Part shown: piece after piece, positions 7,577 through 61,063 of the stretch
How positions within the stretch are numbered: position 1 is the first letter of the stretch
Layout of the letters: each line of letters opens with the position of its first letter
Assembly (NCBI GenBank): GCA_902791985.1
Contig: CADAYD010000003.1
Coordinates: forward strand, 1-64,000
Direction: 5' to 3'
DNA: 64,000 bases
Origin: an uncultured bacterium
Lineage (GTDB): Bacteria; Cyanobacteriota; Vampirovibrionia; Gastranaerophilales; Gastranaerophilaceae
The notes under the pieces: model-generated
Told to the model about the DNA's origin: nothing
Databases searched by the model: none
What the model saw: only the letters and a program-made list of their open reading frames with translations
Position numbers and translations under genes: made by a program

Positions 7577-10221
7577 TGAGAACAAATTTAATCCAATCAT
7601 ACATACATGATAATTCTCAAGCCATGCAACAATATCGTTCGGATAATGCAAGGAAAAATTTTGATATTCATAAAGAATTATCAAACAGAACATTTATAAA
7701 ACCATTACCAAGCAACGGACATTTAGTCAGAAATTCTTTATTTGATATTCCATCTGAAATTTTCAAAGATATAAAATACAGTGCAAAAGCATTTGTTCAT
7801 TCGGTAAAAGGAACCGCAAATGACAACGAACTGGGGCATTTAAACGATTTGGGGATGAAGCTTGGCGGACTTGCAATAGCATCTTATTTATATCTGCGAA
7901 AATCAGCGCCTTTAGAAAAAGCCATGGAATTCATCGGGCTTGCTTCATTCTTTGGAGCGATGGACATATGGCCAAAACTTGCATTACAACTTCCGGCATA
8001 CCTAATACACGGTTTTGATATAAGACAGCAATACCGAGATAATTACGGAATAAAGAAAACCGTATTTCAAGATCACCAATTTATACCTTGGGATTTATAC
8101 TCCGATGAAGAAATAAATAAAATAGGAGACAGACTCAAAGTTCCAAAAGACATGAAAAATCGCAGAGATTTTATTCAGGAAAAAATGCGAAAAATAGCAT
8201 TACAAAATAATACAATGTGGATGCTTACAGCAGGGTTTGCAACTCCTATTATGAGTGCTCTAATTTGTGAATCATTAAAAGAGCCTATTTCCCGTTATCA
8301 GGATAAGAAAATCAATAAAAAAGCTAATAATTTGTTGGAAAATGTAGGTGAAGAAATAAAAAAATATGATTTTTCTCAAAAAAATAAAGAACTTGAAAAC
8401 ATTTTAGAAGAGTATAAAGGGAAAAATATAACTCCGGAAGCCTTTGAAAATATTACAAAAACCTTATCAAAAGGAATGGATTCAATTACATCTGAAGCAA
8501 TACAAAGAGATTTAAAGAATATTTTGCTGAATCAATCAGGATATGATATCTCAAGAGAAACTTTTGAAGGTTTTAATACATTACTAAAAGATACTCTTAA
8601 AGATTTACCGCAAAATATACAAGAACAAATATTGCCAACCCCCGATGAAATTATATCCAAATTAGATTCAAGCAAACAAGGTATGCTTCGAGATAAAGAA
8701 GTAATAAGTGAACAAAGCGATTTTTCTTCATACATAAAAGCTTTTGAAGATGCAATAGAAGAAAAATTTGATAACTTCAAAAAATCTAATCCAAATCATC
8801 CTGAAGAAACAAAAATAGATTTTCTTATAAATCAAATGTTTGACTCCACTCAAAACGGGGAATCGATTTTTGATAAACCTTTAAAATTAACACCATCTTC
8901 AATTTTAAACGAAACAAAAATCGAGAATTTAAAAGAAATAAATACTATTCTCAACACATTGCATGCCAGACAAAGAGTTTTAAATAAATATTCATATCTA
9001 AAATCTGCACAAGCCCCTGAAACATATCTTGCAAACACATGGAATGGGATTTTAGACAATGATCTGTTAAAAGCACTGGATATTACAGATAAAGATATTA
9101 AAATGACAAGAATGGATACCCGTCTTGTTAATAAACTTCTGAGAGATAAAATAGAAACAATAGTTTCAAATGATACAAAATATAACTTACTTCTTGATAA
9201 AATTATAGAAAAATTAAATTTCTTAAAATCAAGAACAGACTTTGCAAAATACGACAAATATAAAGCAGACGAAACAAACCCGTACAAAACATATGTCGAT
9301 ACAACGTTCAATGAAGCCTCTAATGCTCTGAAAGAACGTAAAATGAAATATACAGTTCAAAGATTGATTGGATATGATGTAGATTCATCAAAAGGAGAAA
9401 TTGATACACATTCTCTCAAAGATTTGCAGCTTTCATTTATTCAAGACCGAGTCAGAGGAGTGAAATGTTCTTTCTATCGTTTATTAAATACCCTTGATTT
9501 CTTTAAACGCGTATCCGACATTGAACATTTAGATTCTTTAAAAGAATATAATTACTATCATCCCACAACAAAAGAATTATTAAAACACGTTGACTTTACC
9601 CGTCCTGTACAGGAAGAAATGATTGAATTAGCAAAACAACTTCTGCTTGGAGGAAGATCATCAGATTATGCCGTAAAATTCTTCTTCTTAAGAGACCCCG
9701 AACTCAATCCGGAAAATTTAACACCCGAACAAAAACAACGGCTCTACTCTAATATTGAAACAAAACTCGGAAAAGTTTTAAATGCTTTTTACGGCAAAAA
9801 AGAATTAAAACAACTTGCAGATAATCCTCATGACAGAATATTTTATGACTCTATTATGCGATTGATGTATTTTGACAGACTCAGCACAAAAACAAAAGAA
9901 AAAATTGAAAATTCAACATTTATAAAAGACTTTGAAGACTACAGAAAAGAATTATTGAGCAAGCTTGGAGGAGATAAATACTTTACCAAGCCAAACCACG
10001 TAGTGAAAGATGCCAAAGAAGCCACCAGTGAATTACAATTCCAACTGTTAGGCAGCGCAATAGACGACATGTTTACCAAACTATTTAAGCAAAAATATAA
10101 CAGTAAGACATGGCTTAACATCTTTGGAGGTCTTGGAGCCGCAGTGTTTGGAATTACTTTAATTTCACAGTTCTTTATGGGTAAAATGCCAAAAGATAAA
10201 ATCATTAAGGAGAATAAATAA
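7576..10221 (+). CDS. Unknown large membrane-anchored helical protein
   Basis: The 881-residue protein is translationally coupled at both ends, overlapping each neighbour by one base (TAATG). Hydrophobic segments lie near residues 96-109, 119-145, 216-231 and 848-868. Residues 240-840 between them are charged, Lys/Glu/Asn-rich and predicted helical, with coiled-coil-like stretches. The section FIPWDLYSDEE plus the helix after it resembles part of the preceding protein. There is no signal peptide and no enzyme motif I can name. The layout suggests a scaffold or structural membrane protein working with its operon partners. Confidence 0.7.
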   Translation: MRTNLIQSYIHDNSQAMQQYRSDNARKNFDIHKELSNRTFIKPLPSNGHLVRNSLFDIPSEIFKDIKYSAKAFVHSVKGTANDNELGHLNDLGMKLGGLAIASYLYLRKSAPLEKAMEFIGLASFFGAMDIWPKLALQLPAYLIHGFDIRQQYRDNYGIKKTVFQDHQFIPWDLYSDEEINKIGDRLKVPKDMKNRRDFIQEKMRKIALQNNTMWMLTAGFATPIMSALICESLKEPISRYQDKKINKKANNLLENVGEEIKKYDFSQKNKELENILEEYKGKNITPEAFENITKTLSKGMDSITSEAIQRDLKNILLNQSGYDISRETFEGFNTLLKDTLKDLPQNIQEQILPTPDEIISKLDSSKQGMLRDKEVISEQSDFSSYIKAFEDAIEEKFDNFKKSNPNHPEETKIDFLINQMFDSTQNGESIFDKPLKLTPSSILNETKIENLKEINTILNTLHARQRVLNKYSYLKSAQAPETYLANTWNGILDNDLLKALDITDKDIKMTRMDTRLVNKLLRDKIETIVSNDTKYNLLLDKIIEKLNFLKSRTDFAKYDKYKADETNPYKTYVDTTFNEASNALKERKMKYTVQRLIGYDVDSSKGEIDTHSLKDLQLSFIQDRVRGVKCSFYRLLNTLDFFKRVSDIEHLDSLKEYNYYHPTTKELLKHVDFTRPVQEEMIELAKQLLLGGRSSDYAVKFFFLRDPELNPENLTPEQKQRLYSNIETKLGKVLNAFYGKKELKQLADNPHDRIFYDSIMRLMYFDRLSTKTKEKIENSTFIKDFEDYRKELLSKLGGDKYFTKPNHVVKDAKEATSELQFQLLGSAIDDMFTKLFKQKYNSKTWLNIFGGLGAAVFGITLISQFFMGKMPKDKIIKENK

Positions 10222-11933
10222 TGATTTCTAATATAACAACAAATTTAATAGCATTAAAGGTCAATTCTCCTTATGAATTAACCCCGAAATCTTTCGGTAC
10301 GACAAACTTTAAAGGAGAATCCAGCAATCTTATACAGCAATATCTTGAATCTCAAGCAGCAATAAATGCTCCTGTAGTTACTTCCCCTGTAACAATTTCA
10401 AATTTGAACTATAAAAATGATTTAAGAACACTTTTTACAACAAACAGTGCAAAAATTCTTGCAATATTACCAAGAACGTTCACTGCACAAGATACTAACG
10501 GGAACGAATACATTGACGGAAACGAAAAAGCAGGGACTTTTTTAAGTGGTATATCCAGACTTGATGAAATAAAATCACAAGGTTTTAATACTTTGCACCT
10601 TCTACCGATAAATCCTCCAGGGAAAGATAACGCTATGGGAACCGCCGGCTCTGTTTATTCCCCTGAAGACTTATTAAAAATTGATCCGGTTCTAATTGAC
10701 AAGAATGATACACGTTCAGATAAAGAACAATTTAAAACTTTTGTCGATGAATGTCATAAACGTGGGATAAGAGTTATGGTGGATATGCCAAGCTGCGCAT
10801 CATACAACCTATACAAAGAAAAACCGGAACTTATGGCAATAGAAAACGGGATCCCCAAAACTCCGCAAGGCTGGGAAGATATCAGAATGTTCCAACCGTG
10901 GGATGATGAAGGTAAAAGAACTTTGAATCCAAAATTGTTAGAGTACCACAGACAATTTGTAGATATGATGATAGATGCAGGAGTTGACGGGATTAGAGCG
11001 GATGTCGCAAGAGCAAAACCGGTAGAATTTTGGGATATTATCATTCCTTATTCAAGAAAAAGAGATCCTGAATTTGCATGGCTTGCAGAAACATACACCT
11101 ATGAGGATGCATCTCCTCAAGCAAATATGCCTTATGACAGACCTGAAGATTCATTAAGAGCAGGATTTGATGCGTATTATGGACAATATCATATATTCCA
11201 CGAATGGCCAAAAGCAAAAGATTTGCATGATTATGTAATTGATAATTTGAACATGTCATACAGAGTAGATACAGGGAAATCTCTAATCGGTTCATTTGCA
11301 ACACACGATGATGTATCTCCAATGTTCCATGGAGGAGAAATTTATTGCAATTTAACATCAGGACTTCAAGCAACATTACCGATGATGAATCCTTATATAG
11401 TTGACGGTTTTCAGTCCGGAGATTACTATGTATACCCTTATCGCAATACAGATAGCGAAGAAACAATGACTGACAACCATGAAAGGACCGTACACAAAGG
11501 GAAGCTTGATATATTTAATCTTTCAAGACAACCTGGTGGTAAAGAACCACAAATCGGCAAATTTATGACTGAATGTTTTAAATTCCGCGATAAATATGAT
11601 GATGTTATGCGCAGAGGTTCATATATTATATTGAACAAAGAAAAAGATAAGCAGGATCAGGTTATAGCATTTGCACGTCACAGACAAGGAAGAACTGTAC
11701 TTGTTCTGGCTAATAAGGATGTTAATCACCCAATTGCTTGTAAAGTAATAGTTCCAACTCTAAAATCGACCCAGAAATTAAATAATTTACTACCTAAATA
11801 CGGACAAGAAAGCAAATTTCAAGTGAACGAAGGAAGCATTTCTGTAGTCTTAGGACCAGGAAGAATCCACGCATTCGAAATTGATACCCCAAATATTCAA
11901 CTTTATTCGGATAAAGTTTATAAACAGCACTAG
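10221..11933 (+). CDS. GH13 alpha-amylase-family glycoside hydrolase, no signal peptide
   Basis: The 570 residues hold the glycoside hydrolase 13 barrel. The nucleophile aspartate is D261 in DGIRADVARAK, the acid/base is E290 in WLAETY, and the third acidic residue is in FATHDDVSP (363-364). The usual NHD of region IV is THDD here. A calcium-loop-like DTNGNEYIDG lies around residue 92. Substrate may be glycogen or another alpha-glucan. There is no signal peptide. Instead the N terminus carries TNFKG (28-32), the tag-like motif shared with other genes here. AAGGAG precedes the ATG, which overlaps the previous stop, so it belongs to the operon of two membrane proteins. Confidence 0.85.
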   Translation: MISNITTNLIALKVNSPYELTPKSFGTTNFKGESSNLIQQYLESQAAINAPVVTSPVTISNLNYKNDLRTLFTTNSAKILAILPRTFTAQDTNGNEYIDGNEKAGTFLSGISRLDEIKSQGFNTLHLLPINPPGKDNAMGTAGSVYSPEDLLKIDPVLIDKNDTRSDKEQFKTFVDECHKRGIRVMVDMPSCASYNLYKEKPELMAIENGIPKTPQGWEDIRMFQPWDDEGKRTLNPKLLEYHRQFVDMMIDAGVDGIRADVARAKPVEFWDIIIPYSRKRDPEFAWLAETYTYEDASPQANMPYDRPEDSLRAGFDAYYGQYHIFHEWPKAKDLHDYVIDNLNMSYRVDTGKSLIGSFATHDDVSPMFHGGEIYCNLTSGLQATLPMMNPYIVDGFQSGDYYVYPYRNTDSEETMTDNHERTVHKGKLDIFNLSRQPGGKEPQIGKFMTECFKFRDKYDDVMRRGSYIILNKEKDKQDQVIAFARHRQGRTVLVLANKDVNHPIACKVIVPTLKSTQKLNNLLPKYGQESKFQVNEGSISVVLGPGRIHAFEIDTPNIQLYSDKVYKQH

Positions 11934-13559: not shown

Positions 13560-15032
13560 CTAAATTTCTCCTAAAATATCAAGCTTATATGAAGCACCTA
13601 TTTCTTCTTGAGCAAGAACAACAATATTATTAATATATAAACTTAATAAAGTGAAAAATATTTGGCGATACTCCATAGGAACCATAATTTTCGGTTGCTC
13701 AATATTCATTTTTTTTGAAAGACGCACTACTTTTTTAGCTATCTTTTCTGCAAAATCAGCATCTATTTTTATTATTGAACCATCAGAATCATCACACCCC
13801 ATAACAAGCGCTGAATAGCTCTTGTCCGATAAATCAAATATACTTATAACTCCTTCATCATTCGCATATTTGCGACAAATTTGTCTTGAAAGAGCCAAAC
13901 GAATTTTATTTATTATATCTACCTTTGAACCCTCATCAGCAAAATCATTTATTTTTTCAAATATATAAGTAATATTTTTTATAGAAACCTGTTCTTTTAT
14001 AAGACTTACCATAATATACTTTATATCCGCATAGGTAAGAATATCCGGAACAATATTATCAACCAAATATGGATTTTCCTTTTCTACGACATCGAGATAC
14101 TTTTCAATATCTTCGTAATCAAGCAAATCCTCAACATGTTTTATTGCAACATATTCTAGCGCCTTTGCAATATATTGAGATGAAGTCAGACCGTTCTGCC
14201 AAAAATCCTTAGCTTTGTCCTTCTCAACCCAAATGACCTTTTTACCCGTAATTTCATCTTCCGAGTTTACGGAATTTTTTATTTTATGCTCTGTATGAAG
14301 TTCATTTGCATAAAACATTTTGTGTTCAGGATAAACAACAGCCTTAAAAACTTCTATCCCTCTGATTTTTATACAAAATTCACAAGGATTAAGATTTTCA
14401 TCATCTTTGAATACAACTTTTGGAATGACATAGCCTGCGCTTTCGGTTAAATCCAATCTTGTTTTTACCGTTTCCGCAACAAGCTGTTCATCTTCATAAT
14501 CCCCACGTTCAAAATCAACAAAACCCAAGAGTTCTTCACTTAAATATATAGATAATTTTTCTTCGTGCAGCTTGGAATACATTAAATCCGGAGAAGTTGC
14601 TTTATTTAACTCGCCTTTCAAATCATCCAAGGCTTTCAAACCTGATGAAATTTTATCATTTAATTTTTTACGGGATACTGAAACATCCCCATCTAACTGA
14701 GATTTGACTTGGTTTATTTCATCACGTTTTTGTTTGATCTTACTTTGAATTTCAAGACATTTTTCATACTCTGTCAAACGAGGAGAAAGCATTTTTTCCA
14801 TTTGACTTTTAAAATCCGAAATACTTATTATATCTCCAGAAGATTCCGATGATTTTGCTTCTCGCATAAAAATACAATTTAATTGAGCACTCTCATCATC
14901 TGTTCCAACCTCAGTCATGCTGTAAAGATCCCAACCTTTCATTGACATTTCATTCAATAAATTTTGAAGCTCTTGAGCATTTTCTGCCGAACAAGTCTTT
15001 ATAATATATTCCATTCTGTTTTTGCCAAGCAT
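13560..15032 (-). CDS. Soluble protein with a FlhA-type (FHIPEP) cytoplasmic domain
   Basis: The 490-residue protein has no membrane segment. Residues 1-60 resemble the DUF4177 fold (NLLNEMSMKGWDLYSMTEV). Residues 75-150 are coiled coil. The rest aligns along its length with the cytoplasmic domain of FlhA/InvA/LcrD, the nonamer-ring export gate of flagellar and type III secretion systems: GYVIPKVVFKDDENLNP, CIKIRGIEV, NPYLVDNIVPDILTYADI, IRLALSRQICRKYA and a final EEIGASYKLDILGEI. FlhA itself is about 690 residues with eight N-terminal membrane helices, absent here. AAAGGA precedes the ATG. It starts 4 bases after the udp stop, so the two are cotranscribed. No flagellar genes are nearby. Confidence 0.85.
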   Translation of the reverse strand: MLGKNRMEYIIKTCSAENAQELQNLLNEMSMKGWDLYSMTEVGTDDESAQLNCIFMREAKSSESSGDIISISDFKSQMEKMLSPRLTEYEKCLEIQSKIKQKRDEINQVKSQLDGDVSVSRKKLNDKISSGLKALDDLKGELNKATSPDLMYSKLHEEKLSIYLSEELLGFVDFERGDYEDEQLVAETVKTRLDLTESAGYVIPKVVFKDDENLNPCEFCIKIRGIEVFKAVVYPEHKMFYANELHTEHKIKNSVNSEDEITGKKVIWVEKDKAKDFWQNGLTSSQYIAKALEYVAIKHVEDLLDYEDIEKYLDVVEKENPYLVDNIVPDILTYADIKYIMVSLIKEQVSIKNITYIFEKINDFADEGSKVDIINKIRLALSRQICRKYANDEGVISIFDLSDKSYSALVMGCDDSDGSIIKIDADFAEKIAKKVVRLSKKMNIEQPKIMVPMEYRQIFFTLLSLYINNIVVLAQEEIGASYKLDILGEI

Positions 15033-15036
15033 AATA

Positions 15037-15795
15037 TTAGTCCTTTAAAATTTTAATTGCCTCTATTGCTGTTTTTATAGCCTTTTGCGTATCATGTTCC
15101 ACCGGATTATCAAATCCTTGTTTTTCTCGTTCCTGATTTGCAACAACCAAAAATACAGAACCTACTCTTACCTTTAAATAACTTGCAACAATAAATAAAG
15201 CAGCAGATTCCATTTCAGAAGCTAAACATCCCAAACGTTTCCAAGCCTCCCACTTATTTAAAAGTTCATTTGAAACAGGCATCGTTTCAGGAGAATGTTG
15301 ACCATAAAAAGAATCTTTGCACTGCACTATACCGGCATGACAATTATAACCCAATTTTTTTGCCGCATTTATAAGAGCATTAGTAACATCCAAATTCGCA
15401 ACAGCAGGGAATTCAATTGGAGCATACTCTTTACTTGTTCCTTCCGCACGTATTGCACCGGTTGCAACAACAACATCTCCACCTTTTACATTTACATCTA
15501 TTCCTCCGCAAGTCCCAACACGAATAAAAGTCCTTGCTCCTACCCGTGTCAATTCCTCCAAAGCAATAGCAGCAGAAGGACCGCCAATTCCTGTTGACGT
15601 TACACTAACCTTTTCACCGTCAATAAAACCTGTATATGTAACATACTCTCTGTTGTCAGCAATTTTTACTGGATCATCAAAATATTGTGCTATTATCTCA
15701 CAACGCTTTGGATCTCCGGGAAGTATAACATATTTACCTACATCCCCTTCTTTTAAACCTATATGGTACTGTTTCCCATCACTCGTATAATTCAT
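15037..15795 (-). CDS. udp: Uridine phosphorylase-family nucleoside phosphorylase
   Basis: The enzyme splits a pyrimidine (or purine) nucleoside with phosphate into base and ribose 1-phosphate, for nucleoside salvage. The 252 residues show the phosphate-binding [16 protein letters not shown] and the ribose-binding SEMESAALF typical of the NP-1 family. The residues around [13 protein letters not shown] favour uridine phosphorylase over purine nucleoside phosphorylase, but the substrate is not certain. It is the first gene of a two-gene unit with the FlhA-domain protein. Inverted repeat B lies just upstream. Confidence 0.87.
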
Positions 15796-59323: not shown

Positions 59324-61063
59324 ATGATAAGTAAAGTTGAATTAGGTAGTGTAAATAGTAAGAATAGAACCCCTCAAGACCAAATTAGCACAAACAAGAA
59401 AGTGTCTAATCCGAGTTTTACCGGTATTGGTGATTTGGTATTGAGAGGAATACAAACTTGTGAAGCCAATCCGATGATAAACGTTTCGGTATTGGATTTA
59501 TCTACTGCCATTTTGCCAAGAACAATTGTTGAAACATTTATCGGCTCAAAGAAAAAAGATGAAAACGGAGAAAAACAAAAACGTCACTTGAATATATTTG
59601 GCGGCTTTGAAGCATTCAGACGCGAATCATCAGGGCTTATTATTAACTGCTTAATCCCGAGTTTCATCGTTATTGGAGTTGCAAAACTACTTAACAGACC
59701 TATTATGGGCGGCTTCAAAGAATCTAATCTAACCAAATCGTGGGCAAACAGCGAAGCTATTGACAGCATCAACAAGTACTTTACATCAGCAAAAGGTAAA
59801 GACAAGGAAGAACAGATTTATAATGCCTTAAAAGACATGACGTTAGACCTGCATGGTGTCGACGGAGAAAAAGAGAAAGCATTCAAAGATATTCTTGCAA
59901 ATGATGCTGAATATGAAAAACTGCTCAAGAAAACTGCAAATAACATTATTACCGACAATAAAGAATTGTCCCATTCTAAATTCAAATTTGTAAATGCGTT
60001 CAAAAAATTCTTCGGTATTAAATCGTACAAAAATTACACCGATGATTTGTATGAATACATTGTAAATAAAACAGGTACAGCAGAAAACTTGAGATTTACT
60101 GAGCAGAAAGGTTATTCTACAAGTAATTTAAGACATTTACTTGATAGCAGCAGCGATATATTACGCGCATCTGTAGAAGAAAATCTCTCTGCCGGTTCAA
60201 AAGAATACACTAAATATATTTCTAAAGCAAAAAAACTTGTAAATGCAAAGAGCGCAATTGGTTTACTTGGTTTAATTATCCCACTGGCAATATCAGCCCA
60301 ACCGATTAACCGTTGGATTACTCATAAACTTTCAGGTAAGGCAGGTGCTCCAATCTATAACGATGATAAAGACAGACATCTAACCCACGAAGAAAAGAAA
60401 AAATTGACTGCCGAAAAATTCTTTGCAGTACCTTTAATGTGGGCTGTAGCCGGATTGTCAATGCTTTTAGACAGACCTAGCCTAAAAATGTTCCAATTTA
60501 AAAATATATTCCCAACTATGGATCAGGCAAGAATCATTTCTGCTGCGACATTCTCAAGCCGTATTGCTGCTTCGGAAGATTCTAACGAATTAAAAGAAAA
60601 TACAATCAGAGATATTGCAACATTCTCAAGCTTCTATTTCTTAGGTGACTACGCCGCTAAAGCGATTGCAACAATTATCCAAAAACATTCTAAAAATGTC
60701 ACTTTAATAAATAAACTTAAAGAATTGGATCCGAAAGCAAATATGCTTCAAAAAATCTGGCATTGGGCAAAACATACCGCAATGAAATCATCTGATGAAT
60801 TAGAAGCAATAAAAGACACAGCATTAAGAACAAGAAGCAAAAATTTAAGAGCACTTTGTCAGGCAGGGAATTTAGTATTCTCTTTATTATCTCTCGGACT
60901 ATTTATCCCATTATATACAAGAACCCAGACTAACAAAAAGCAAAAAGAATTAGCACAAAAACAAGCTCAAGCACTCGCAGCCTCAGAAGTTTTTACGGGC
61001 AGTCCGTCAAAATCTCCTGTGTTCAAGGCTTTTTCGTTAGGCAGTACAAAAAAGGCAGCATAG
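59324..61063 (+). CDS. Unknown membrane protein with NPSFTG motif, first paralogue
   Basis: The 579-residue protein begins with a polar segment and NPSFTGIGD (29-37), the shared tag-like motif. Hydrophobic segments lie near residues 104-124, 309-328, 366-385 and 518-534. It is paralogous to the next gene, sharing ILPRTIV near 62, RRES in the next part, AQPINRWITHKLSGKAG and NELKENTIRD. The stop is immediately followed by the next ATG. The first ATG has no close ribosome site. Function unknown. Confidence 0.7.
   Translation: MISKVELGSVNSKNRTPQDQISTNKKVSNPSFTGIGDLVLRGIQTCEANPMINVSVLDLSTAILPRTIVETFIGSKKKDENGEKQKRHLNIFGGFEAFRRESSGLIINCLIPSFIVIGVAKLLNRPIMGGFKESNLTKSWANSEAIDSINKYFTSAKGKDKEEQIYNALKDMTLDLHGVDGEKEKAFKDILANDAEYEKLLKKTANNIITDNKELSHSKFKFVNAFKKFFGIKSYKNYTDDLYEYIVNKTGTAENLRFTEQKGYSTSNLRHLLDSSSDILRASVEENLSAGSKEYTKYISKAKKLVNAKSAIGLLGLIIPLAISAQPINRWITHKLSGKAGAPIYNDDKDRHLTHEEKKKLTAEKFFAVPLMWAVAGLSMLLDRPSLKMFQFKNIFPTMDQARIISAATFSSRIAASEDSNELKENTIRDIATFSSFYFLGDYAAKAIATIIQKHSKNVTLINKLKELDPKANMLQKIWHWAKHTAMKSSDELEAIKDTALRTRSKNLRALCQAGNLVFSLLSLGLFIPLYTRTQTNKKQKELAQKQAQALAASEVFTGSPSKSPVFKAFSLGSTKKAA

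Follow-up and report, generated by a model that had tools for sequence, protein, structure and literature searches.

A soluble paralog of the FlhA cytoplasmic domain is conserved in the gut bacterial order Gastranaerophilales

Background

The cytoplasmic domain of FlhA (FlhA-C) is known from solved structures such as 7amy, 3a5i and 3mix, and its counterpart is the gate domain of the injectisome protein SctV (7alw, 4a5p, 6wa6). A GYXLI switch motif with Gly-368 has been described for FlhA together with its role (PMC9431611), as has a chaperone dimple containing Asp-456, Phe-459 and Thr-490 (PMC8166844). SctV needs D3 and D4 to form rings, and a substrate is bound in the cleft between D4 domains (PMC9163089). 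In Buchnera, flagella are reduced to basal bodies, for which protein secretion has been proposed in work cited in a passage of PMC3459982.

For the Gastranaerophilales, an order of gut "Melainabacteria", complete or partial flagellar gene sets were reported by Di Rienzi et al. (PMC3787301) and Soo et al. (PMC4040986), the former listing two flhA genes in ACD20. The relevant passages of these papers and of PMC5877343 note fliF, fliH, flhA, fliP, fliQ, fliR, flhB, flgC and flgG as an incomplete flagellum; they treat neither a free FlhA-C nor a separate conserved apparatus. Our search, which covered part of the literature, found no paper on a soluble FlhA paralog and none on type III secretion or a filament-less export system in Melainabacteria.

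The sequence analysed here, referred to as the window, is a stretch of 64,000 nucleotides from a Gastranaerophilales genome of 1.9 Mb (97.8% complete). It encodes a protein that has the whole D1-D4 fold of FlhA-C and part of the FlhA linker. It differs from FlhA in having no membrane domain, in carrying a DUF4177-like head and a helical hairpin, and in its poorly conserved D4.

Results

A complete FlhA cytoplasmic domain without membrane helices

The ORF occupies positions 13560-15032 of the minus strand (490 amino acids, ATG start, stop codon at 13560-13562) and encodes a complete FlhA cytoplasmic domain without membrane helices. Residues 143-481 align with positions 316-655 of the 657 in the Pfam profile PF00771 (FHIPEP) at E=5.2e-50, far above the cut-off, and the B. 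subtilis FlhA-C 3mix was matched by phmmer at 8e-27. An AlphaFold2 model built on 18 aligned family members (pLDDT 79) gave the same picture: residues 154-490 superimpose on the nonameric FlhA-C 7amy with Z=31.2 and an rmsd of 2.7 over 329 residues, and FlhA-C and SctV-C structures as a group match with Z values of 23-31. D1-D4 can thus be assigned to residues 148-490 (13563-14591, minus strand). Identity to the solved FlhA-C chains is about 18-24%. The profile and structural matches together rule out a chance similarity. The SctV domains share the fold (Z 23-30), whereas in sequence the protein is closer to FlhA, with 164 bits for the FlhA equivalog TIGR01398 and 103 bits for the SctV equivalog TIGR01399. 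The TIGR01398 cut-off of 772 bits is not reached, as expected for a protein in which the membrane half of FlhA is missing.

The N-terminal membrane domain, which takes up roughly the first 315 positions of the profile, is absent, since the PF00771 match starts at position 316. No further FHIPEP piece was found near the ORF. PF00771 has just one more match in the genome, on a different contig: a separate, full-length FlhA, here called FlhA2. A full-length gene that has been split or frameshifted can thus be ruled out. The preliminary description of the window had read the C-terminal part of the ORF as the whole FlhA cytoplasmic domain without its membrane helices, and both points are upheld by the profile and structure comparisons that it proposed.

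Head and helical hairpin

Residues 7-58 (14859-15014, minus strand) are predicted by AlphaFold2 to form a beta-alpha-beta-beta head. Its residues 18-58 are similar to the last two thirds of the DUF4177 profile PF13783, but the match of the window protein (E=0.018, 15.7-17.7 bits) stays under the gathering score of 25, and Pfam gives DUF4177 no function. Weak matches to the same profile were found for 13 of 17 homologous heads (E up to 0.1, the best 1.2e-4). After a stretch of low model confidence (residues 61-86) follows a predicted helical hairpin (residues 88-145; 14598-14771, minus strand) with helices at residues 88-114 and 121-145. The best structural neighbours are KCTD5 chains for the head (Z about 6) and generic helical hairpins for the hairpin (Z up to 9.7), which may be only common arrangements.

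A BLASTP alignment with FlhA2 begins at residue 325 of FlhA2 and residue 124 of the free protein, so that the second hairpin helix corresponds to the FlhA2 linker region. The FlhA linker has thus been partly kept rather than wholly replaced. The earlier proposal that a different N-terminal domain and a coiled coil took the place of the membrane part therefore holds for the head, but not for the whole of the hairpin. A role of the hairpin solely as a FliJ replacement was ruled out, a separate FliJ2 being present in nearly all genomes of the order.

Gene neighbourhood

Directly upstream, in the same direction and separated by 4 bp, lies a nucleoside phosphorylase gene (PNP_UDP_1; 15037-15795, minus strand; PF01048, E=6.9e-42), whose functional association with the free FlhA-C is putative. 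In the family to which the window belongs the gene order is bamA-skp-phosphorylase-free FlhA-C, and it is variable elsewhere. Two genomes of a single genus have the free FlhA-C gene just upstream of fliJ (FliJ by Pfam, E=1.4e-17), which is followed downstream by genes read from their sequence as fliK, flgD and flgE. This adjacency is a possible link to export, and as it occurs in one genus only it may also be due to chance.

A flagellum-type export apparatus without flagellin

The genome of the window carries a nearly complete flagellum-type export apparatus and rod-type proteins without flagellin, for which there were no matches to PF00669 in this 97.8% complete assembly. FlhA2 is encoded in the run fliE-fliF-X-fliH-flhA2-LysM protein, where X, at the position of fliG, gives a sub-threshold Pfam match and none in other profile libraries. 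Elsewhere in the genome we found a FliN-type protein together with fliO-fliP-fliQ-fliR, as well as flhB, a likely fliI, fliJ and rod-type genes. All members of the export set tested (FlhA, FlhB, FliP, FliQ, FliR, FliI, FliH, FliJ, FliF and FliE) were present. The export and rod loci extend from L033:18130 to L034:5222 (contig C12) and over L065:10114-11178, L079:7242-11071, L084:803-3056 and L087:1411-2760. The preliminary description had seen no flagellar genes, which is true of the window only, because such genes are carried elsewhere in the genome; the search for other flagellar or type III secretion genes that it suggested yielded this near-complete set.

FlhA2 falls short of both equivalog cut-offs, with 587 bits for SctV (TIGR01399, cut-off 692) and 699 bits for FlhA (cut-off 772). 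FlhB2 is likewise under both its flagellar and its injectisome cut-off. By contrast, a relative (L014) has a flagellar FlhA1 that scores above the FlhA cut-off. Flagellated relatives carry the FlhA2-type apparatus beside a second, normal set.

A motif resembling NFKG/SFTG was observed in the first 45 residues of many proteins (13 occurrences in 12,735 positions, against 12 in about 74,500 positions further on). Carriers include the products of 10221-11933 and 59324-61063 in the window, L079:5139-5957 and L081:12954-13394. The motif may serve as a signal for targeting or export.

Distribution across the order

Three paralogs were distinguished in a survey of 98 genomes, 81 from the order and 17 from other members of the class. 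FlhA1 scores mostly about 860-890 bits and occurs in flagellin-bearing genomes; FlhA2 scores mostly about 670-730 bits and occurs in nearly all genomes of the order. The architecture of the free FlhA-C is present in 78 of the 81 order genomes (one copy is incomplete at its start) and in none of the 17 other class members. A sample of 386 genomes of the phylum, which partly overlaps the first and was queried with the head and hairpin only, gave 172 strong matches, all inside the order; among the genomes listed in this search, G047 was the sole order genome without a match.

Flagellin is missing from 55 genomes of the order, 53 of which keep the free FlhA-C, in line with the earlier expectation that it is conserved in genomes without flagella. 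Nearly all of these genomes also keep one FlhA2, FlhB, FliP and FliJ2. Genomes without flagellin mostly have a single FlhB and a single FliP, whereas flagellated genomes mostly have two of each. G047 (98% complete) and G048 (93%) hold FlhA2, FlhB, FliP and FliJ2 but lack the free FlhA-C, which is thus not essential to the apparatus. In G036 (99% complete) FlhB, FliP and FliJ2 were present and a full-length FlhA was not found, which may reflect an assembly gap. In several genomes of the window's own genus (G004, G012, G016, G017, G024, G031, G034, G038 and G040) the FliJ2 match crosses one or two in-frame stops.

Single genomes encode other proteins derived from FlhA-C (L106:1462-3243, L107:1228-2235, L108:1480-2337, L105:928-1818, L110:1120-1800 and L111:1558-2190). 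All are truncated, lacking the D2 part and in some cases D4 as well, and two have probable membrane segments. The L106 protein has an N-terminal part similar to the product of X, the gene in the place of fliG in the FlhA2 operon (BLASTP, 2e-8).

Relationship to FlhA2 and residue conservation

The free FlhA-C proteins form one clade with a support of 100/100. A profile built from them scores about 250-281 bits with the FlhA2 proteins of the order and about 145-168 bits with the flagellar FlhA1, which suggests descent from FlhA2 over another FlhA. However, their branch is long, and the tree does not settle which FlhA was the parent. Between close relatives, dN/dS is about 0.05-0.12, a rough figure because synonymous sites are near saturation, and one from which several pairs from mis-oriented loci were left out. 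It indicates purifying selection and rules out a pseudogene. Pairwise distances are about four times those of FlhA2 in the same genomes. The domains differ in conservation: with borders transferred by alignment and thus approximate, mean identity is highest in D3 (0.56), the head (0.55) and D1 (0.50) and lowest in D4, which reaches 0.34 as against 0.85 in FlhA2.

Of 65 residues common to FlhA1 and FlhA2, the free proteins keep 20, partly keep 12 and have lost 33. Invariant residues that were retained include R192, G200, P204, W268, E347, E359, R378, R456 and E477. Further residues, such as F208, W278, G281, Y306 and I396, are fixed only in the free proteins. The equivalent of Gly-368 in the GYXLI switch, a glycine in all FlhA1 and FlhA2 compared, is a serine (Ser165) in 95% of the free proteins. 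The dimple positions Asp-456, Phe-459 and Thr-490, mapped by alignment to 6ai2 (an F459A mutant chain), correspond to D259, T262 and K290 of the window protein, so that the aspartate is kept but the other two are not. An invariant proline and histidine neighbouring the dimple are also lost. With these features of the canonical export platform gone, the domain does look repurposed, as the preliminary description had supposed. However, its suggestion of a chaperone platform is unlikely in the usual FlhA sense, given that the canonical dimple is largely not conserved.

Discussion

We read the free protein as a neofunctionalised paralog of FlhA-C. Its build speaks against a docking platform of the canonical type and in favour of a scaffold or adaptor whose head has acquired a new partner. 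The most likely reading, which we put forward tentatively, is that it assists the retained flagellum-type export system as an accessory adaptor or scaffold. In the ancestor of the Gastranaerophilales, a single duplication would have copied the cytoplasmic part of an FlhA, which in sequence comes closest to FlhA2. With the membrane domain replaced by the DUF4177-like head and the hairpin, the copy would have become a soluble protein. The D1/D3 core would have been kept, whereas the switch glycine Gly-368, some of the dimple and most of the constraint on D4 would have been lost. The product would act in the cytosol for an export apparatus that is kept without flagellin (FlhA2/FlhB2/FliPQR/FliHIJ and rod proteins); its FlhA-like core may contact the export gate or other molecules of its own kind, and the head and hairpin may bring in a different partner.

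This accessory role is favoured because of the parent family, the co-presence with the apparatus and the linkage to fliJ in one genus. It also agrees with the further FlhA-C spin-offs produced in this lineage, among them the L106 protein, whose N-terminal part is similar to the product of X. Against it stand the loss of canonical docking residues and the location of the gene, in the window's family, beside bamA, skp and the phosphorylase rather than beside export genes, as do G047 and G048, which hold the apparatus but not the free FlhA-C. Moreover, co-occurrence inside one order is weak evidence because the apparatus and the free FlhA-C are both nearly universal there.

The same neighbourhood could point to a cytosolic scaffold or binding protein that acts independently of export, for instance in connection with envelope biogenesis or the metabolism of nucleosides, and that binds a partner through its DUF4177-like head. 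Such a role would also fit the altered Gly-368 switch, dimple and D4, the residues fixed in the free protein only, and the fact that the protein outlasts the loss of flagellin. However, the neighbourhood is not conserved outside the window's own family, and the tested genomes with a free FlhA-C also hold parts of the export apparatus, so that we consider this explanation possible but doubtful. Less probable still is a decoy or negative regulator that limits export by competing with FlhA2-C for places in the ring or for FliJ/FliI. A kept D1/D3 core with a fast-evolving D4 and missing dimple residues is what a subunit that engages the ring but cannot dock canonical cargo might look like, yet such an interaction is hypothetical, the strongly conserved head suggests a positive partner role, and the decoy would have to be co-expressed with FlhA2, which lies elsewhere. 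We regard it as similarly improbable that the free FlhA-C assembles in the cytosol into a ring or hetero-ring that acts as a sorting platform of its own for a filament-less, flagellum-derived secretion system conserved in gut Melainabacteria. The fast divergence (a distance ratio of about 4 to FlhA2) could be taken as the mark of an evolutionary remnant without function, but this is hardly credible in view of the purifying selection and of genes that are intact in 78 of 81 order genomes, with few in-frame stops across the whole set.

The reduced basal bodies of Buchnera offer a parallel, in that the genome studied here too keeps a flagellum-type export apparatus and basal body without motility, as judged in this case from the genes. 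To our knowledge, a free FlhA-C has not been described in Buchnera.

Conclusions

In the Gastranaerophilales, a cytoplasmic domain of FlhA evolves as a free protein with a head of its own and is retained throughout the order, with or without flagella. The finding also draws attention to the conserved export apparatus of these gut bacteria, which earlier papers recorded only as an incomplete set of flagellar genes. If the free FlhA-C and this apparatus are indeed linked, they would constitute a natural test of an FlhA-type domain without a membrane anchor.
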